DNA of 34,078 nucleotides from Verrucomicrobium sp. (GTDB lineage: Bacteria > Verrucomicrobiota > Verrucomicrobiia > Limisphaerales > UBA9464): the NCBI GenBank assembly GCA_021298285.1, contig JAJTFN010000039.1, positions 3,257 through 37,334 on the forward strand. Reading direction: 5' to 3'. Positions within the stretch are counted from its first letter, which is position 1; each line of letters opens with the position of its first letter. Below are positions 1,315 to 21,226 of this stretch, piece by piece. Made by a program: the position numbers and the translations under genes. The notes below the pieces were generated by a model. The model did no database searches. It saw only the letters and a list, made by a program, of their open reading frames with translations, and was not told the origin of the DNA.

Positions 1315-4300
1315 TCAGCGGCGCATGACCGCTTCGTCGTGGTTGAGGAGCAGTTGGGCCAGCACGGTCGCCGCCGCGAGGCGGGCGGGCGGATGCTCGC
1401 CCGGCACCGGTTTGTCTCCCACCTTGAGCAGGCGCTCGGCCGCGGGAAGATCCCTCTGGAACTGGGCCTCCTGCTCGTCCATCAGGCGCGCCATCACCGC
1501 CACCTCGTCCCTGGATGGGCGGCGACCGGTGACCAGGGCGAAGGCGAAGCGCACCTGGCGCTCGGTCCCGACGCCGGCCTCGCGGAGCATGCGGCCGGCG
1601 ACATGGCGAGAGGCCTCGACCATCTGCGGGTCGTTGAGCAGCACCAGCGCCTGCAGCGGGGTGCTGGTGGACTGGCGACGGACCACGCAGTAGCTGCGGT
1701 CGGCCGCGTCGAGCGTCATCATGGAGGGCGGCGGCACGGTGCGCTTCCAGTAGGTGTAGAGGCTGCGCCGATAGAGGTCGTCGCCTTTGCCGACCTGGTA
1801 CTGCCCGCCGCCCATGGTCATCTGCCAGAGACCATCCGGGTGGTACGGCTTCACGCTCGGCCCACCCACCTTGTCCACCAGGAGGCCGCTCACGAAGAGG
1901 GCCTGGTCGCGCAGCATCTCGGCCGAGAGCCGACGGGCCGGTCCCCGGGCCAGCGTGCGGTTGTCGGGATCGGCCTCCCAATCCCGGGGCCTGACGTGGG
2001 AGGCCTGCTGGTAGGTGTCGGAGGTGACGATCAGGCGCTGGAGGTCCTGGAGGTTCCACGGGCGGAGGCCGACCGACTCGTTGCCCCGCACGAAGGACAC
2101 CGCCAGCCAGTCGAGCAGTTCTCGGTGGGTTGGTGCCGCCCCCTGCAGGCCGAAGTTGTCGGAAGTCTCCACCAATCCCCGGCCGAAGAACTGCTGCCAG
2201 ACCCGGTTGACCGTGACGCGCCCCATCAGCGGGTTCGACGGATCCAGCAGCCATTGGGACAGCCCGAGCCGGTTGCGGGGGGCGCCCGCCGGGAGACGGC
2301 CCATGACGGCCGGCGTCTCCATGGTGACCGACTCGCCCGGCTGGTCGTAGGCCCCACGCCGCAGGACATGGGCCGGCTTGGGCCGGTCCATCTCGTCCAT
2401 GACCATGATGTCGGGAATGGAGGTGACCAGGGCGTTCTGCTCCCGCCGCACCTTCAGGAGGGCGTCGAAGGCCTCCCGGTGCGGCGCATGCCGGGTGAGC
2501 AGGAAATGCTCGAGGACGGCCGCCTCGCCAGGAGTCGCGTCACCCTGACCGGCCAGCACGGCCACCTCGACCGGCGACAGGGTCCGGTCGAAGACGTGCA
2601 ATTCGTCGACCTGCCCCTGCTTGAAGCCGAAGTCGCGCATGCGCTGGCCGATGGTCAGGTTGGGCTGCCCGTAGGTGATGTCCTTCCAGAGGTTGTCCCG
2701 CACGACCTCGACCTCGGCAGGGCGGCCATCGAGGTACACCTTGAGGCCGGCGGCACGGCTGGAGCCGTCATAGGCGAAGGCCACGTGGGTCCACGCGCCG
2801 ACCGGGGCCGCCTGGCGGGTGCGCACCTTGAGGGCGTTGCCCGGCCACATGTGGTGCAGGCCGACCGCGACCCGCCCATCCTCCATCAGGATCTCGTAGC
2901 CTCGGCTGCCGGCATCCATCCAGGCCGAGCTGTGATGGATGACCGTCTGCCGGGGCACGTGCATGGCGGGACGGATCCACAGGGCCAGCGAGAACGGATC
3001 GACCCGGGAGAAATGCCCGATGCCCGGCATGGAGACGCCGTTCTCGCCGCTGAGCATCAGCGCCTTGCCGAAGCGCCCATCCACAGCCTGGGGGGATTCG
3101 AAAGGCTGCGCCCGATGGCCGCCCACGGCGCTCGGGTAGGCGTTGGACACCATCGCGTCGAAGGAGAACCTGGCCACCGCGCCAGAGACCTCCGGGGGCT
3201 TCCCCGCCGACTCGGCGCGCCATGCGTCGAAGGCCGGGCGGGCCGCCTGGGCCACCTCACGCAACCGGGCCTCCCCGGCCCGGATCCGGGAGTTGAGGTC
3301 CTTGAGCCGGGCGTCCTGCTCCGGGGTGCTCAGGAGCAGGGTCGGCACGGGCATGATGTCGCCGAAGTACACGCTCTGCCCGGACTCGTCGATGTTCTGG
3401 AAGAAGGCGAAGAGCTGGTAGAACTCCTTCTGTGAAATGGGATCGAACTTGTGGTCGTGGCACCGGGCACACTCGAAGGTCATGCCCAGGAAGGCCGTGC
3501 CGAAAGTGTTCACGCGGTCGACGTTGTAGGCCACGCGGTACTCCTCCTCGACGATGCCGCCCTCCTCATTCTGCAGGTGGAGGCGGTTGAAGGTGGTGGC
3601 CAGGCGCTGCTCCTGGGTGGCCTCGGGCAGCAGGTCGCCCGCCAACTGCCATTGCACGAACCGGTCGAAGGGCAGGTGACGGTTGAAGGCCCCGATGACC
3701 CAGTCGCGCCAGGGCCAGACCGGCCGGTAGCGGTCGGCCTGGAACCCGTGCGTGTCGGCGAAGCGGGCCAGGTCGAGCCAGTCGGTGGCCATGCGCTCGC
3801 CGTAGCGGGTCGAACCCATGAGGCGTTGGACCTCGGACAGGTAGTGCTCCCGGGTGGGCCGCCCCTCGAAGGCCACGATTTCCTGCGGCGTCGGCGGCAG
3901 GCCGGTGAGGTCCAGGGAAAGGCGGCGCAGCAGGCGCCCCGGCTCGGCCGGCGGGGACAACCGTTTCCCGGGGCCCAGCCGTGCCAGCACGAAGGCATCG
4001 ATGGGGTTGCCACTTTTCCAGCTCCGATGCTTCGGAACCGGGGGCAGGACCGGGGGCACGAAGGACCAATGCTGCCCCCAGCGTCCCCCCTCCTGGATCC
4101 ATCGGCGGAGGAGGCGCACCTGGTCGGCGCTCGGGCGCTTGCCGGTCTCCGGCGGGGGCATGACCTCGTCAGGATCGGTGCTCCCCAGGCGTCGGATCAT
4201 CTCGCTCTGGTCGGCCTTGCCCGGGACGACGGCGGTCTTGCCGCTCTTGCCGGTCCCGAGCGCGCCTTCCTGCACGTCGAGGCGCAGGCCGCCTTTGCGG

Positions 4301-4452
4301 CCGGTCGTCGAGGGCCCGTGGCACTGGTAGCAGTGCTCCGAGAGGATGGGCTGGATGTCGCGGGCGAAGTCGACCCCGGCCGCGCGGAGCCGAGCGCCGG
4401 CCAGCAGGAGCCCCAGCATCATCCAACCCCTCAATGGCAACATCGAGACCAT
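1315..4452 (-). CDS. PSCyt1/DUF1549/LamG/DUF1553 cytochrome-type exported protein
   Basis: This protein of about 1045 residues has a short hydrophobic signal segment (residues 11-25). A PSCyt1-type haem site, C40-YQ-C43-H44, follows inside DIQPILSEHCYQCHG. DUF1549 comes next (about 110-350), with WLDLARFADTHGFQADRYRP and a second CxxCH in CARCHDHKFDPI. A LamG/concanavalin-like lectin domain (about 420-620) is recognisable from WTHVAFAYDG, LKVYLDGRPAE and VDELHVFDRTLSPVEV. DUF1553 (about 700-1040) contains RVTVNRVWQQFFGRGLVET and STPLQALVLLNDP. This domain order is standard for the large planctomycete/verrucomicrobial cytochrome family, whose substrate is unknown. The lectin-like domain suggests carbohydrate or surface binding, which is inference. 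GTG 4461 and ATG 4443 are alternative starts; no ribosome binding site separates them. Cotranscription with the downstream DUF1501 gene is likely. Confidence 0.93.
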   Translation of the reverse strand: MVSMLPLRGWMMLGLLLAGARLRAAGVDFARDIQPILSEHCYQCHGPSTTGRKGGLRLDVQEGALGTGKSGKTAVVPGKADQSEMIRRLGSTDPDEVMPPPETGKRPSADQVRLLRRWIQEGGRWGQHWSFVPPVLPPVPKHRSWKSGNPIDAFVLARLGPGKRLSPPAEPGRLLRRLSLDLTGLPPTPQEIVAFEGRPTREHYLSEVQRLMGSTRYGERMATDWLDLARFADTHGFQADRYRPVWPWRDWVIGAFNRHLPFDRFVQWQLAGDLLPEATQEQRLATTFNRLHLQNEEGGIVEEEYRVAYNVDRVNTFGTAFLGMTFECARCHDHKFDPISQKEFYQLFAFFQNIDESGQSVYFGDIMPVPTLLLSTPEQDARLKDLNSRIRAGEARLREVAQAARPAFDAWRAESAGKPPEVSGAVARFSFDAMVSNAYPSAVGGHRAQPFESPQAVDGRFGKALMLSGENGVSMPGIGHFSRVDPFSLALWIRPAMHVPRQTVIHHSSAWMDAGSRGYEILMEDGRVAVGLHHMWPGNALKVRTRQAAPVGAWTHVAFAYDGSSRAAGLKVYLDGRPAEVEVVRDNLWKDITYGQPNLTIGQRMRDFGFKQGQVDELHVFDRTLSPVEVAVLAGQGDATPGEAAVLEHFLLTRHAPHREAFDALLKVRREQNALVTSIPDIMVMDEMDRPKPAHVLRRGAYDQPGESVTMETPAVMGRLPAGAPRNRLGLSQWLLDPSNPLMGRVTVNRVWQQFFGRGLVETSDNFGLQGAAPTHRELLDWLAVSFVRGNESVGLRPWNLQDLQRLIVTSDTYQQASHVRPRDWEADPDNRTLARGPARRLSAEMLRDQALFVSGLLVDKVGGPSVKPYHPDGLWQMTMGGGQYQVGKGDDLYRRSLYTYWKRTVPPPSMMTLDAADRSYCVVRRQSTSTPLQALVLLNDPQMVEASRHVAGRMLREAGVGTERQVRFAFALVTGRRPSRDEVAVMARLMDEQEAQFQRDLPAAERLLKVGDKPVPGEHPPARLAAATVLAQLLLNHDEAVMRR

Positions 4453-4545
4453 GGGAATCACGACGCCGAGTGTGGAGGAGTCTTCAATCGAGGCGATGGC
4501 AAACTGTCACGGCGGCTTGCCGGAAGAAGCGATTCCCGGGAACGG

Positions 4546-4583
4546 CACCGGGGGCGACAGCGTCAGCGCCATCGCCCCCGGTG
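4546..4583 (-). terminator. Strong hairpin after the PVC haem-protein gene, possible terminator
   Basis: The arms 4546-4557 and 4572-4583 are exact reverse complements (12 bp, GC-rich) around a 14-base loop. The hairpin lies about 39 bases past the stop of the minus-strand gene ending at 4622 and upstream of the next minus-strand gene. No run of U follows, so it may act as a weak or Rho-assisted terminator or an mRNA 3'-end stabiliser. Confidence 0.4.
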
Positions 4584-4621
4584 GAGTGCTTCCGGGTGCT
4601 CCCCGGGTCATCGCGGTTCGG

Positions 4622-7600
4622 TCACTTGGCGAAGGCCTTGTGCTGCGGGTTGCCGCCGGACTGCAGGTAGGCGACGAGGTCGAGCAACTCGTCCCGGTTG
4701 AGGGGGTTGATCATGCCGGCCGGCATCAGCGACACCGGGTAGGGCTTGCGGCCCTTGACCTGGTCCAGCGCCACCGCCGTGAACTCCTCGGGGTTCCGCG
4801 GGTCGGCCGTCACCACCAGCTTTCCGTTCTCGGTGTAGGCCCGTCCCACCAGCGTGGAACCGTCGGCCAACTGGATCTCCTCCGAACCATACTGGTCGGA
4901 GATGACCTTGGAGGGCTCGATGATGTTCTCCATCAGGTCGCGCACGGTGTAGCGCGAGGCGACGCCGGAGAGATCCGGACCCACGCCGCCGCCCGCCCCG
5001 TCGAAGCGGTGGCAGGCCGCGCAACCGACCGAGTTGTACATGGCCTTGCCGTTCTCGAAGCTGCGTCCCCTGATGGCACCCGAGGCCAGGGCCACGGCCT
5101 CGTCGACCGAGTAGGCCTTGCCGGGACCCTTGGGCGCCGCGTAGGTCGGGTCGCCACCGGTGGCCCGGCGGGTGGAGATCTCCTCGTAGGTCTTCCGCTC
5201 GGCCGTGTCGGCGACGGTCGCCAGGGCGTCCTTGCGGATGTTCTCGAGGAAGCCGCGGAAGCTGTTGCCGCCCTGCCAGGGGGCCGTGCGCGGGAACCAG
5301 CTGAAGAACGATTTCCGCAGCGCCGGGGTCCAGCCCACCTTGGCTTCGCGCAGCAGGTAGGCGTAGGCGATCTGCTCCTGGTTCGGGCGGCTGGCCGTGG
5401 CCTGGGCGAAGGCCCCGGCGTAGCCCCGGTTGCGCTCGAGCAGGGCGTCGCTGGCGTAGCGCACGTCGGAATCGTTGGCCGTGAGCATCAGGGGCACGCT
5501 CTTGGCGACCACCGTCGGCGAACCGAGACGGATGAGCGCCCCGACGAGTTCGCGGTTCAGCTGGCGGCTGCCCGACGGATACAGGGCGTCCAGCCGGCGA
5601 AGGGTCGCCTGGAGGGTCTCGCCCTGCGGGTTGCCCTGGCGGATGAGCGCCAACTGGTAGGCACGCACCACGGCCAGCTTGGCCGGCTCGTCCAGCTTCC
5701 GCAGGTCCAAGCCGTTCAGGAAGCCCAGCAGGCGGTCGCGATGCTCGGGCTTGCCGACGCGGGCCAGCGCGACGGCCCCCTCGATGGCCGCCCACGGCCG
5801 GGTCTCGGCGAACAACCGGTCGGCCCAGGCCGTCACCGGCTGGCGCTCGATGGCGACACGGGCTGCATACCGGACGAAACGGTCCTCGTGGCCGAGGCTC
5901 TTCCAGGCCTTGGCGACCGCCTCGGGCCCGGTCCCCTCCAGGTGCAGGCGCTCGAGGTCACGCCGCAGCTTGGCCGCTGCCGTCAACTTCGGTGCGGGGG
6001 CCGGGGAGGTGCTCTCCTTGCCGACGTAGGTGACGCGGTACACCGCCGACTCGGTGCCACGGCCACCGATGGCGAAATACATCGCCCCGTCGCGGGGATG
6101 GATCAGCAGGTCGGTGAGGGGCAGCGGACGACCGCTGACGAACTCCTCCTTCTCGGCCTTGTAACCCGCCCCGTCCGGGGTCAGGTGGATGGCGTACATC
6201 GTGCCGTAGGTCCAGTCGTTGGCGAAGATGGCGTTCTGGTAGCGCGCCGGGAACTTGGCTCCCAGCCCCGAGGAGACACCGGTGGGTGACCCGGGCCCGA
6301 TGTCGACCAGCGCGGGAAGGCTGTCCGGATAGTAGGTGGGCCACTTGCCCGCACCCGACCGCCACCCCATGTCGCTGCCGCTGGTGGCCATGGACACGCG
6401 CGTGGGACGGTACCAGGGCGCTCCGGCATCCCACTCCATGTCGGAATCGTAGGTGAACAGGTCACCCAGCGCGTTGAAGGCGATGTCGTACTCGTTGCGG
6501 TACCCGTAGCTGATGAGCTCGAAGGTCTTGCCGTCGGGGTCGGTTTTGCAGATGTAGCCGCCCGGGGCCAGGATGCCGCGGGCGTGGCCATTGGCGTCCC
6601 AGAGGCGGGTGACCACCTGGTCCTCGTCCCACGACCGGGCGGCGCGGGAGAGTTCCATGTGGTCGGGCAGCTTGGTGTGGTTGCCGCAGGCGACGTAGAG
6701 GCTCTTGCCGTCCGGGGACAGCACGATGCCGTGCGGGCCGTGCTCGCCGCCTCCCTCGATGCGGCGGAGCATCTTCTCCTCGTCGTACTGGTCGTCGCCG
6801 TCGGTGTCGCGCAGGCGCCAGAGGCCCTGGCGGCCACCCTGTTCATTGACCATCACATACAGGCTGCCGAAGGCGTGCAGCAGGCCGTGGGCGCCCCCGA
6901 CGGCGTTCTTGAGCTTCTCGATGGTCGCCGGCGCGGAAGATCCCGGCGCGGCGAGGGTCAGGCGGTACAGGCCGCCGCCCTGGTCGCAGGCCACCAGGCG
7001 GCCCTTCGGATCCACGGTCATGCTGACCCACGAGCCCTGCTGGGACTTGGGCACCGCGTAGATGAGCTCGGCCCGGAACCCGGGCAGGAGCTTGATGTCG
7101 GAGGGGGCGATGACCGGGGCCGCGGCGGGTTTGCCGGGGGCGGCCGCACCGGCCAGCGCATTGCCCCAGGGCTGGTCGCCGTACTTGGCGAGCACCTTGG
7201 CGGGCTTCCAGTCGGACTTGCCGGGCAGCGCGGCCTCCCAGGAGCCGTCGCTCTCGATGACCGTCTGCTTGCCGTCGTTGTCCTTCAGGGTGAGCCGCGC
7301 CACAAAGCCGGCGATGTCGCCCTCGTTCTTGCACTCGGCGCGCAGCTCATGGCGGCCGGCCTTGAGCTTGCGGGTGAGGTTGACCTTCGAGGGTTCGCTC
7401 CAGTCGGGGTTGGTGACCACCAGTTCGCCATCCAGGAAGACCTTCGCGCCGTTGTCGCAGGTGACGACGAGCACGGCCTCCTTGAGCGGGCCGGCGACCT
7501 CGAACGATTTGCGGAGGTTCGCCGCCGGTTTGCTGCCGGGGCCGTCGGCCCAGATCCAGGAAGTTTCGGCCTGCAGGGAAACGGAGCCGAGGGCCAGTGC

Positions 7601-18944: not shown

Positions 18945-19970
18945 ATGAATCCCCGACTGATCGCCTCGATCGTCCTCATCGCGACCTGCGCGCTGTGGGC
19001 CTTCAGCTTCCCGCTGCTCAAGTCCATCGAGCAATTGGGGCGCCGGAACGCCCCGGGCAGTTCCAGCCTCTTCGTCTCCACCCTGCTGGTGGCGCTGCGT
19101 TTCTCCTTCGCGGCCGGGTTGTTCGCGGCGGGGCTGTGGTTGCGGCGGGCCTGGCCGGGGCGCCGCCGCCCCTCCTCGGAGACCGACTGCCGCCGCCCCT
19201 CCGCCCGCCCCACCGCCCTGGAGTGGAAACAGGGCCTGGGGATCGGGGTCTTCGGCTCGCTGGGGCTCATCCTCCAGATGGACGGGTTGGCCTACACCGC
19301 CGGATCCGTCTCGGCGTTCCTGACCCAGGGCTATGCGGTGTTGATCCCGATCTGGGTGGCGGTGTCGTGCCGTCGGGCCCCCGGGTGGCCGGTGATCGGA
19401 GCCTGCCTCCTGGTCGCCCTCGGTGCGGCGCTGCTCGCCGGGGTGCGGCCCGACAACCTGCGCCTCGGGCGTGGGGAACTCGAGACCCTCGCCGGTTCGG
19501 TGCTCTTTGCCGGGCAGATCCTCTGGCTGGAGCGGGCGGAATTCTCCGGCAACGACTCGGTCCGGGCCACCACCGTGATGTTCGGGGCGATGGCGGCGAC
19601 AGCCTGGCCCCTCGCCCTGGCCCTGGCCCCCCACCCGCAGGATGTCCTCCGGGCGTCCGCGTCTGCGGACATCGCCGGGCTCTTCGCGCTGCTGCTCGCC
19701 GGCTGCACCCTGCTGACCTTCCCGCTGGCCAACCACTGGCAGCCGAAGGTGACAGCCACCCAGGCTGGACTGCTCTACTGCACCGAACCGGTCTTCACGA
19801 GCGTGGTCTGCCTCTTCGTGCCGGGCTGGATCTCGAGGGCGACCGGATTGTCGTACCCGGACGAGTCCCTCGACGCACGGCTGGTGCTCGGCGGAGCCTG
19901 CATCCTCGCGGCCAACGTGTGGATCCTGTTCCGGCCGCCCGCGATGGAGACCCGGAGCAACCCCACCTGA
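18945..19970 (+). CDS. EamA/DMT family permease (intact copy)
   Basis: This 341-residue permease has about ten transmembrane helices in two EamA repeats. The first opens with LIASIVLIATCALWAFSFPL and includes LQMDGLAYTAGSVSAFLTQG. The second includes AGSVLFAGQILWLERAEFSG, VMFGAMAATAWPLALAL, TATQAGLLYCTEPVFTSVV and a final LVLGGACILAANVWILF. The family exports or imports small metabolites; the substrate cannot be told here. An Arg/Pro-rich linker near residues 70-90 separates early helices. Bases 19547-19611 are repeated in perfect inverted orientation in the facing EamA gene. Within this protein the segment fits the EamA fold well, so this gene looks like the donor. Start ATG 18945 is the first codon giving an EamA N-terminus. 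Confidence 0.88.
   Translation: MNPRLIASIVLIATCALWAFSFPLLKSIEQLGRRNAPGSSSLFVSTLLVALRFSFAAGLFAAGLWLRRAWPGRRRPSSETDCRRPSARPTALEWKQGLGIGVFGSLGLILQMDGLAYTAGSVSAFLTQGYAVLIPIWVAVSCRRAPGWPVIGACLLVALGAALLAGVRPDNLRLGRGELETLAGSVLFAGQILWLERAEFSGNDSVRATTVMFGAMAATAWPLALALAPHPQDVLRASASADIAGLFALLLAGCTLLTFPLANHWQPKVTATQAGLLYCTEPVFTSVVCLFVPGWISRATGLSYPDESLDARLVLGGACILAANVWILFRPPAMETRSNPT
19547..19611 (+). repeat. 65-bp perfect inverted repeat, copy 1 (in intact EamA gene)
   Basis: Compared base by base, these 65 bases are the exact reverse complement of 20198-20262. The match ends on both sides at single mismatched bases (C versus T before it, T versus G after it, read in the gene direction). In frame the repeat encodes GNDSVRATTVMFGAMAATAW and a Pro. 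The copies are 586 bases apart and face each other. Confidence 0.95.
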
Positions 19971-20019
19971 GCCCCGGGACGCGGCCTGATCCGCCCCCAT
20001 GGAGAGCCGGCGGGGCCCA

Positions 20020-20894
20020 TCAAGGATGGAGTTCCTCCGGAGGAGGCCCGGAGGCGCCCCGCGACGACCAGGCGACCCCGGCGATCACCATCGAGGCCCC
20101 CAGGAGACCGACCGGGGTGAACCGCTCACCCCAGACGGCATATGCCGCCGCCAGAGCCACGACCGGTTCGAGCGTCGCGATGGTGGCGGCGCGCGCCGGG
20201 GCCAGGCTGTCGCCGCCATCGCCCCGAACATCACGGTGGTGGCCCGGACCGAGTCGTTGCCGACCGGGACCGCGGCGAAGGAGGCGAAGGGGGCGAGCGC
20301 GAGGGCTCCCACGCCCAGCGCCCAGGCCAGCACGCGCGACGGCGCGTTGTGGGCGAAAAGACCGCGCCCCATCAGGTAGTAGAGCGCATAGGTCACGCCC
20401 GACAGCAACCCCCAGCCCAGCGCCCGGGCGTCGAGCCGCAGCGGGGTGCCCGGGACGTTCGAGGCGACGGCCACCAGGACCACCCCCAACAGGGTCAGCG
20501 ACAGCGGGAGCGCCTCGCGCCACCCGGGACGATCACCCCATCCCAGCCAGCCGCCGACCGCCACCCAGAGCGGTGCCGAGTAAAGCAGGATGGACGCGAG
20601 GGCGACGCCGCCGGACTCCACCGCGCTCAGGTAGGCCAGGTACATCACGGCGACACCGCCGATGCCCAACCCGCAGGCACGACCCCGGTCACCGGCCCGC
20701 AACGGCGCGGCGCGCGTGAGGCTGGCATGCAGCGCGAAGGCCAGCGCCCCGAGGGTGGCCCGCCAGAAGGCGACGGTCGTGGGCGCCACCGACTCGACCA
20801 TGGCGACGCGGCCGGCGATGCCGATCATCCCCCACTGCACGGCGGCAAGCACCATGAGCCAGGCTCCGGCCCGATGGGAGCGCGCCGCGGTCAC
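20020..20894 (-). pseudogene. EamA/DMT family permease broken by an inverted copy of its neighbour
   Basis: Reading from GTG 20894, the first frame gives a normal EamA permease for about 210 residues: WLMVLAAVQWGMIGIAGRVA, VAFWRATLGALAFAL, LASILLYSAPLWVAVGGWLG, GVTYALYYLMGRGLF, LALAPFASFAAVPV. It then enters the 65-bp repeat, leaves it as a nonsense Arg/Pro/Ser-rich tail and stops at 20085. The true EamA C-terminus (ARAATIATLEPVVALAAAYA, VWGERFTPVGLLGASMVIAG) lies in a different frame and ends at 20020. About 35 to 40 residues normally found between these parts are absent. GTG 20894 overlaps the stop of the upstream small gene as GTGA, which fixes the start. The gene is non-functional as read, unless the lesion is an assembly or amplification artefact. 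Confidence 0.85.
20198..20262 (-). repeat. 65-bp perfect inverted repeat, copy 2 (in broken EamA gene)
   Basis: This is the exact reverse complement of 19547-19611. It is read in the same frame from the N-terminal part of the minus-strand EamA gene, and the native C-terminal part continues in another frame beyond it. Native family sequence expected between FASFAAVPV and LAPARAATIATLEP is missing, so the segment looks like a replacement rather than a simple insertion. Confidence 0.95.
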
Positions 20895-21112
20895 GGCGTC
20901 CAATCCCGGACCGTCTCCCAGGAGATCTGGCGCAGGAAGATCGCGTCCTCGGGCGAAATCCCCGCCGGCACGTGGCGGAGGGGCACCGGGCTGTTCCGCG
21001 TGACGGCGGCAACCACCACGCAGGTCTGCAGGTAGGTGCCCGCCAGCCTCGGGTGCTCGCCGTCGGGGGCGAAGAGGTTGAGGGCGGGCAACGGGTTGGA
21101 TTCGGAACGCAT
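20891..21112 (-). pseudogene. C-terminal fragment resembling an SGNH/GDSL-type hydrolase
   Basis: This 73-codon frame starts at ATG 21112 (in-frame GTG at 21172 is an alternative) and ends overlapping the EamA GTG. Its sequence LNLFAPDGEHPRLAGTYLQT and PAGISPEDAIFLRQISWETV resembles the last 60 or so residues of SGNH/DUF4886-like hydrolases. In those, a D-x-x-H-P segment supplies the catalytic Asp and His, and the following G-x-YL-x-A/T-x-V helix closes the domain. The N-terminal block with the nucleophile Ser is not present upstream. It is therefore read as a remnant; a genuine small gene translated and coupled to the permease cannot be excluded. Assignment rests on motif memory and is moderate. 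Confidence 0.5.
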
Positions 21113-21186
21113 TCGGTCGGGTGTCTCGGGCGATGGAACACTCCGCGCACCCCGGGACGCAACGGTTGCCACCGCTCTCCCTCGGC

Positions 21187-21210
21187 GGGCGGTCCGGCGG
21201 GCGGTCCGGC
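21187..21210. repeat. Two tandem copies of a 12-base unit
   Basis: GGGCGGTCCGGC occurs at 21187-21198 and again at 21199-21210, between the SGNH-like fragment and the end of the hydrolase gene. No function is evident. Confidence 0.8.
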
Positions 21211-21226
21211 ACGGACTCCGGGGCGG

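Follow-up and report, generated by a model that had tools for sequence, protein, structure and literature searches.

Inverted copies of nearby sequence are described both among artefacts and among real mutations. In a study of strand-displacement amplification (PMC1855051), inverted chimeras with an intervening deletion made up 406 of the 475 chimeras from single-cell amplification, and in most of the inverted ones priming had used at least two complementary bases; hairpin self-priming was argued against as a major route there, and nearby displaced strands were favoured. The locus described here, a 65-nt inverted patch in contig C69 of a draft genome, resembles these chimeras, which often join at a few shared bases, in that nearby sequence is inverted and other sequence deleted. 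Such chimeras consist of two segments with one junction, however, whereas the patch has a second junction leading back into the gene that it interrupts. Ordinary library preparation also yields inverted-repeat chimeras, and PMC10908179 describes artefact reads that likewise carry inverted repeats. Those reads come from human DNA and give low-frequency false variants that arise from pre-existing genomic inverted repeats, while the patch in C69 stands in assembled sequence and has no known earlier repeat. Short-range template-switch mutations (PMC7954356, PMC8604942) also exchange a short stretch for a nearby inverted copy; they are held to be real, whereas the patch in C69 occurs in a single draft in which a counterpart is contradicted. 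A narrow literature search for inverted, chimeric or palindromic misassemblies in metagenome-assembled genomes surfaced a single paper, on viral assembly, which does not prove that other reports are absent.

An exact inverted repeat in two permease genes

We analysed a stretch of 34,078 bp (the window) within C69, a 37-kb contig of a 3.37-Mb draft that comprises 244 contigs at 88.9% completeness. The initial annotation had pointed out a perfect 65-base inverted repeat shared by two permease genes, here called A and B. Recomputation of both arms confirmed the exact identity over 65 nt, with a spacer of 586 nt between the arms (Table 1). No other exact inverted repeat in the window reaches 18 bp, and by base composition alone about 9e-27 pairs of 65 bp would be expected. 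In a search of the same genome, with 40 of 46 candidates scored, the A-derived 65-mer was found in two copies, both at this locus, and no further copy was detected. A repeat family or mobile-element end was rejected on this count.

Table 1. Features of the locus in window coordinates
Feature	Position	Strand	Basis
Gene A, intact EamA-like permease of 341 aa	18945..19970	+	translation; Pfam EamA; full-length congener matches
Native arm of the inverted repeat, within A	19547..19611	+	exact repeat; six relatives aligned without gaps
B-bearing segment, about 1.25 kb, missing after A in the relatives whose junction of A with the next gene is visible	19971..21218		comparison of A loci
C-terminal part of gene B, 58 aa, frame different from that of the N-terminal part	20020..20197	-	Pfam EamA on ORF 20020-20523
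Patch within B, an exact reverse complement of the native arm	20198..20262	-	frameshift, with about 90 nt of native B replaced; five B homologues with native B at this site
N-terminal part of gene B, open over 210 aa	20263..20894	-	partial TIGR00950 match; third-position excess
Hydrolase-like gene, 3' end, 66 codons	20891..21091	-	65% identical to the G011 protein at residues 162-227

Gene A reached 25.7 bits against Pfam EamA, slightly below the cutoff of 28.2, and has full-length matches among congeners, for example at 86% identity in G016. The N-terminal part of B gave a partial match to TIGR00950 (54.7 bits, cutoff 230.2), and the ORF that holds its C-terminal reading scored 29.8 bits against Pfam EamA. 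The earlier description of two EamA permease genes stands as far as the family is concerned, both looking EamA-like, but only A is whole: B is broken as assembled, with the change between its N- and C-terminal frames falling inside the second arm.

Six relatives of A could be aligned across the native arm without gaps, with 49–58 of the 65 positions identical, and A shows no sequence loss at the arm. On this alignment the first arm is native to A. Judged by eye from the translations, the copied stretch lies after a membrane segment of the protein's second half. The identity between the arms had been held to exceed what common descent of the two genes could leave, and this is borne out by the 7–16 bases out of 65 that differ in the six relatives of A, together with B homologues that read otherwise at the patch site. 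An invertible or regulatory element was rejected as well, the native arm being conserved coding sequence.

Origin of gene B and of the patch

Among eight A loci compared, six (G016, G011, G015, G007, G010 and G003) match the window again from about position 21219, roughly 17–115 nt after the end of A, and the remaining two (G004 and G008) show no match to the 21219 side. The hydrolase-like gene, which we take by name to be an SGNH hydrolase, adjoins B in G011, G004 and G013 also, and in these three genomes B and A are located on separate contigs. The position of B beside A is unusual and was found in this genome only. From these comparisons B appears to be an accessory gene brought to this place together with its truncated neighbour. 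At the purQ locus, the site of B in G011, blastn detected no remnant of B in this genome. A wrong scaffolding of the entire B segment was considered in view of the unusual placement, but nothing in these comparisons shows the placement to be wrong.

Of 18 congeneric genomes searched besides this one, three (G011, G004 and G013) carry homologues of B. A scan of named genomes added homologues in MAGs of Verrucomicrobia or Verrucomicrobiales, giving five distinct genomes overall, of which G004 and G013 share about 97% identity at B. In all five, B is open at the patch site, with native coding sequence and no A-like stretch. Because every homologue has native coding sequence there, the patch is, by this comparison, foreign to B and a derived state, and we rejected the idea that it is an inherited feature of B. 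In a codon alignment with G011 the native stretch measures about 90 nt and the patch 65 nt, a net change of about -25 nt. The initial annotation had proposed that a relative with an intact gene would reveal an assembly artefact or a strain-specific error. All five genomes found to carry B are such relatives; these belong to other species, however, so the intact copies mark the patch as derived but do not identify it as an artefact. The searches yielded no second genome of this species.

The patch is the sole lesion seen in the parts of B that were read. Between the N-terminal part of B and three homologues, the changes at codon positions 1, 2 and 3 numbered 48/30/96, 45/24/92 and 47/33/99. This excess at third positions is as expected of a gene that was under selection until recently. 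At the inner edge of the patch, which ends in CCTGGCCCC, the homologue L196 reads CCTGCCCCC; in this one homologue, then, a few bases may be common to B and the patch.

False joins and a second inverted patch in the same draft

We surveyed 82 + 21 stretches of the draft for inverted repeats. Sampling was non-random and covered about 1.0 Mb, namely C1–C60, C100–C119 and C180–C199, each read from its start for up to 20 kb, and parts of C69, C120 and C203. The sampled stretches contain thirteen runs of N, 4–74 nt in length, which indicates that contigs were scaffolded. A run of 65 N (C69 3192–3256) lies immediately before window position 1, which is base 3257 of C69.

Only one other isolated long inverted repeat was present in the roughly 1.0 Mb, a perfect one of 91 bp in C7 (2043–2133 and 2701–2791) with a spacer of 567 nt. 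The other exact inverted repeats longer than 30 bp in the sampled draft measure 34 and 31 bp and both belong to a repeat family in C28 (L133 995–2705), which comprises direct copies of 79 and 53 bp at a spacing of 1569 and inverted copies of 28–34 bp. In 775 kb of other genomes, the loci partly overlapping, no inverted repeat reached 30 bp; two cases in about 1.04 Mb of the draft against none in 0.78 Mb elsewhere are not significant alone. Exact direct repeats that begin at a contig's first base were seen in L103 (1–114 and 1942–2055) and L150 (1–74 and 1136–1209) and are possibly contig-end artefacts.

For the C7 patch the draft itself offers a comparison, since it includes a sister contig, C120, whose shared blocks are 99.4–100% identical to C7. 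The inverted patch is missing from C120, and an ORF of 503 aa, presumably CcoG by name, is intact there, where the same gene is broken in C7. At the patch site all seven genomes that match both sides have 36 nt more than C7, and beyond the native arm (position 2791) all eleven genomes that match both sides have 119 nt more; C120 shows the same difference at both places. The native arm of C7 ends at a deletion, unlike the native arm in A. At the outer edge of the C7 patch 10 bases are common to both pieces (2043–2052).

Seven redundant contig pairs were compared in the sample, out of eight found all against all; the omitted pair, L151 and L158, shares a 165-nt match at 97.6%. In five of the seven the smaller contig carries abrupt joints. 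Eleven joints without N lack 28–221 bp and overlap by 0–4 bp, and two further joints hold N runs shorter than the sequence of the larger contig; the comparison skipped the end of L067, for which the partner stretch ended at 20,000 bases. The small contigs C7, C2, C4, C8 and C10 (L072, L067, L069, L073 and L075) are redundant and 98.9–100% identical to larger contigs, and their abrupt joints are apparent false joins that mimic deletions or pseudogenes. The remaining two pairs show no joints. One of them consists of C11 (L076) and window positions 1982–6913, which are 99.7% identical with unchanged structure. On account of this identity the bin, as read from its contigs, holds redundant sequence, perhaps that of a second strain. 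A rare real variant of a second strain is an unlikely origin of C7, since three sequence losses and the patch would have to fall within 4.3 kb. By these comparisons the draft contains false joins at which sequence was lost, as well as an inverted patch that is contradicted from within.

Explanations for the inverted patch

Most likely the inverted repeat in C69 is a sequencing or assembly error and is absent from the organism's real genome, because a similar inverted copy in the same draft, that of C7, is contradicted by one of the draft's own contigs. The native stretch of about 90 nt in B would then have had poor or no read coverage. A chimeric library molecule would have contained A, part of B and, at its end, 65 nt of A in inverted copy, which a free 3' end would have produced by priming on a short complement in a nearby strand, either by folding back on the same strand or by pairing with another one. 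The assembler would subsequently have fused this chimeric end straight to B's other half; a misjoin by the assembler alone would look much alike. The 10-base overlap at the C7 patch seems to speak for priming on another strand more than for a simple hairpin. Of the two origins that the initial annotation had left side by side, a copying event and a sequencing or assembly chimera, the chimera is thus favoured, by way of the second case, and copying less so.

Several observations speak against a chimera. The 65-mer, A and B, searched in the draft, were found on C69 only, and no contig contradicts C69 at B as C120 contradicts C7. C69 is among the larger contigs, while losses always occurred in the smaller contig of a pair; C11 agrees with window positions 1982–6913 without any joint; and A keeps its full sequence at the arm where C7 has lost it. 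Perfect inverted patches and small losses in draft genomes can mimic template-switch mutations or pseudogenes, and redundant contigs within one draft offer a simple check on them.

The same observations lend some weight to a real and very recent mutation, which we nevertheless regard as unlikely. In its course a strand end would have switched template during replication or repair, copied 65 nt from A's opposite strand and switched back, skipping about 90 nt of B and leaving a pseudogene. The anatomy matches a short-range inverted switch, the replaced stretch being an exact inverted copy of nearby sequence, and short switches of this kind are described as real mutations (PMC7954356, PMC8604942). 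B is otherwise free of lesions in the parts read, with its changes in excess at third positions, and a short sequence that CCTGCCCCC in L196 may share with the patch end CCTGGCCCC could have permitted a switch. Against this, two switches are required, and the similar patch in the same assembly is contradicted internally, in the company of false joins of like scale. It is because no sister contig covers B, C69 is large and A is intact at the arm that a real double switch keeps its small share of the probability. The same small share covers the fuller history, set in a Verrucomicrobia relative, in which B, an accessory gene that arrived with a truncated neighbour, would have been destroyed by a very recent double template switch from the neighbouring A. 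Were the patch real, it would represent a clean natural short-range inverted template switch in an uncultured bacterium.

A functional inverted repeat, such as an invertible switch, the ends of a mobile element or a terminator, is very improbable. Perfect arms do flank a spacer, as such elements would have it, but one arm is ordinary coding sequence of A, conserved in the six aligned relatives, and the other disrupts B; between the arms lie merely the two gene ends and a short intergenic stretch, and among the 40 of 46 candidates scored no further genomic copy appeared. Least probable of all is gene conversion between the two permeases as paralogues, which as EamA-like neighbours they might have undergone: it was rejected because the patch is out of register, B still having, by eye in the A and B translations, a counterpart of its own to the copied stretch immediately upstream, with the length shifting by about -25 nt.
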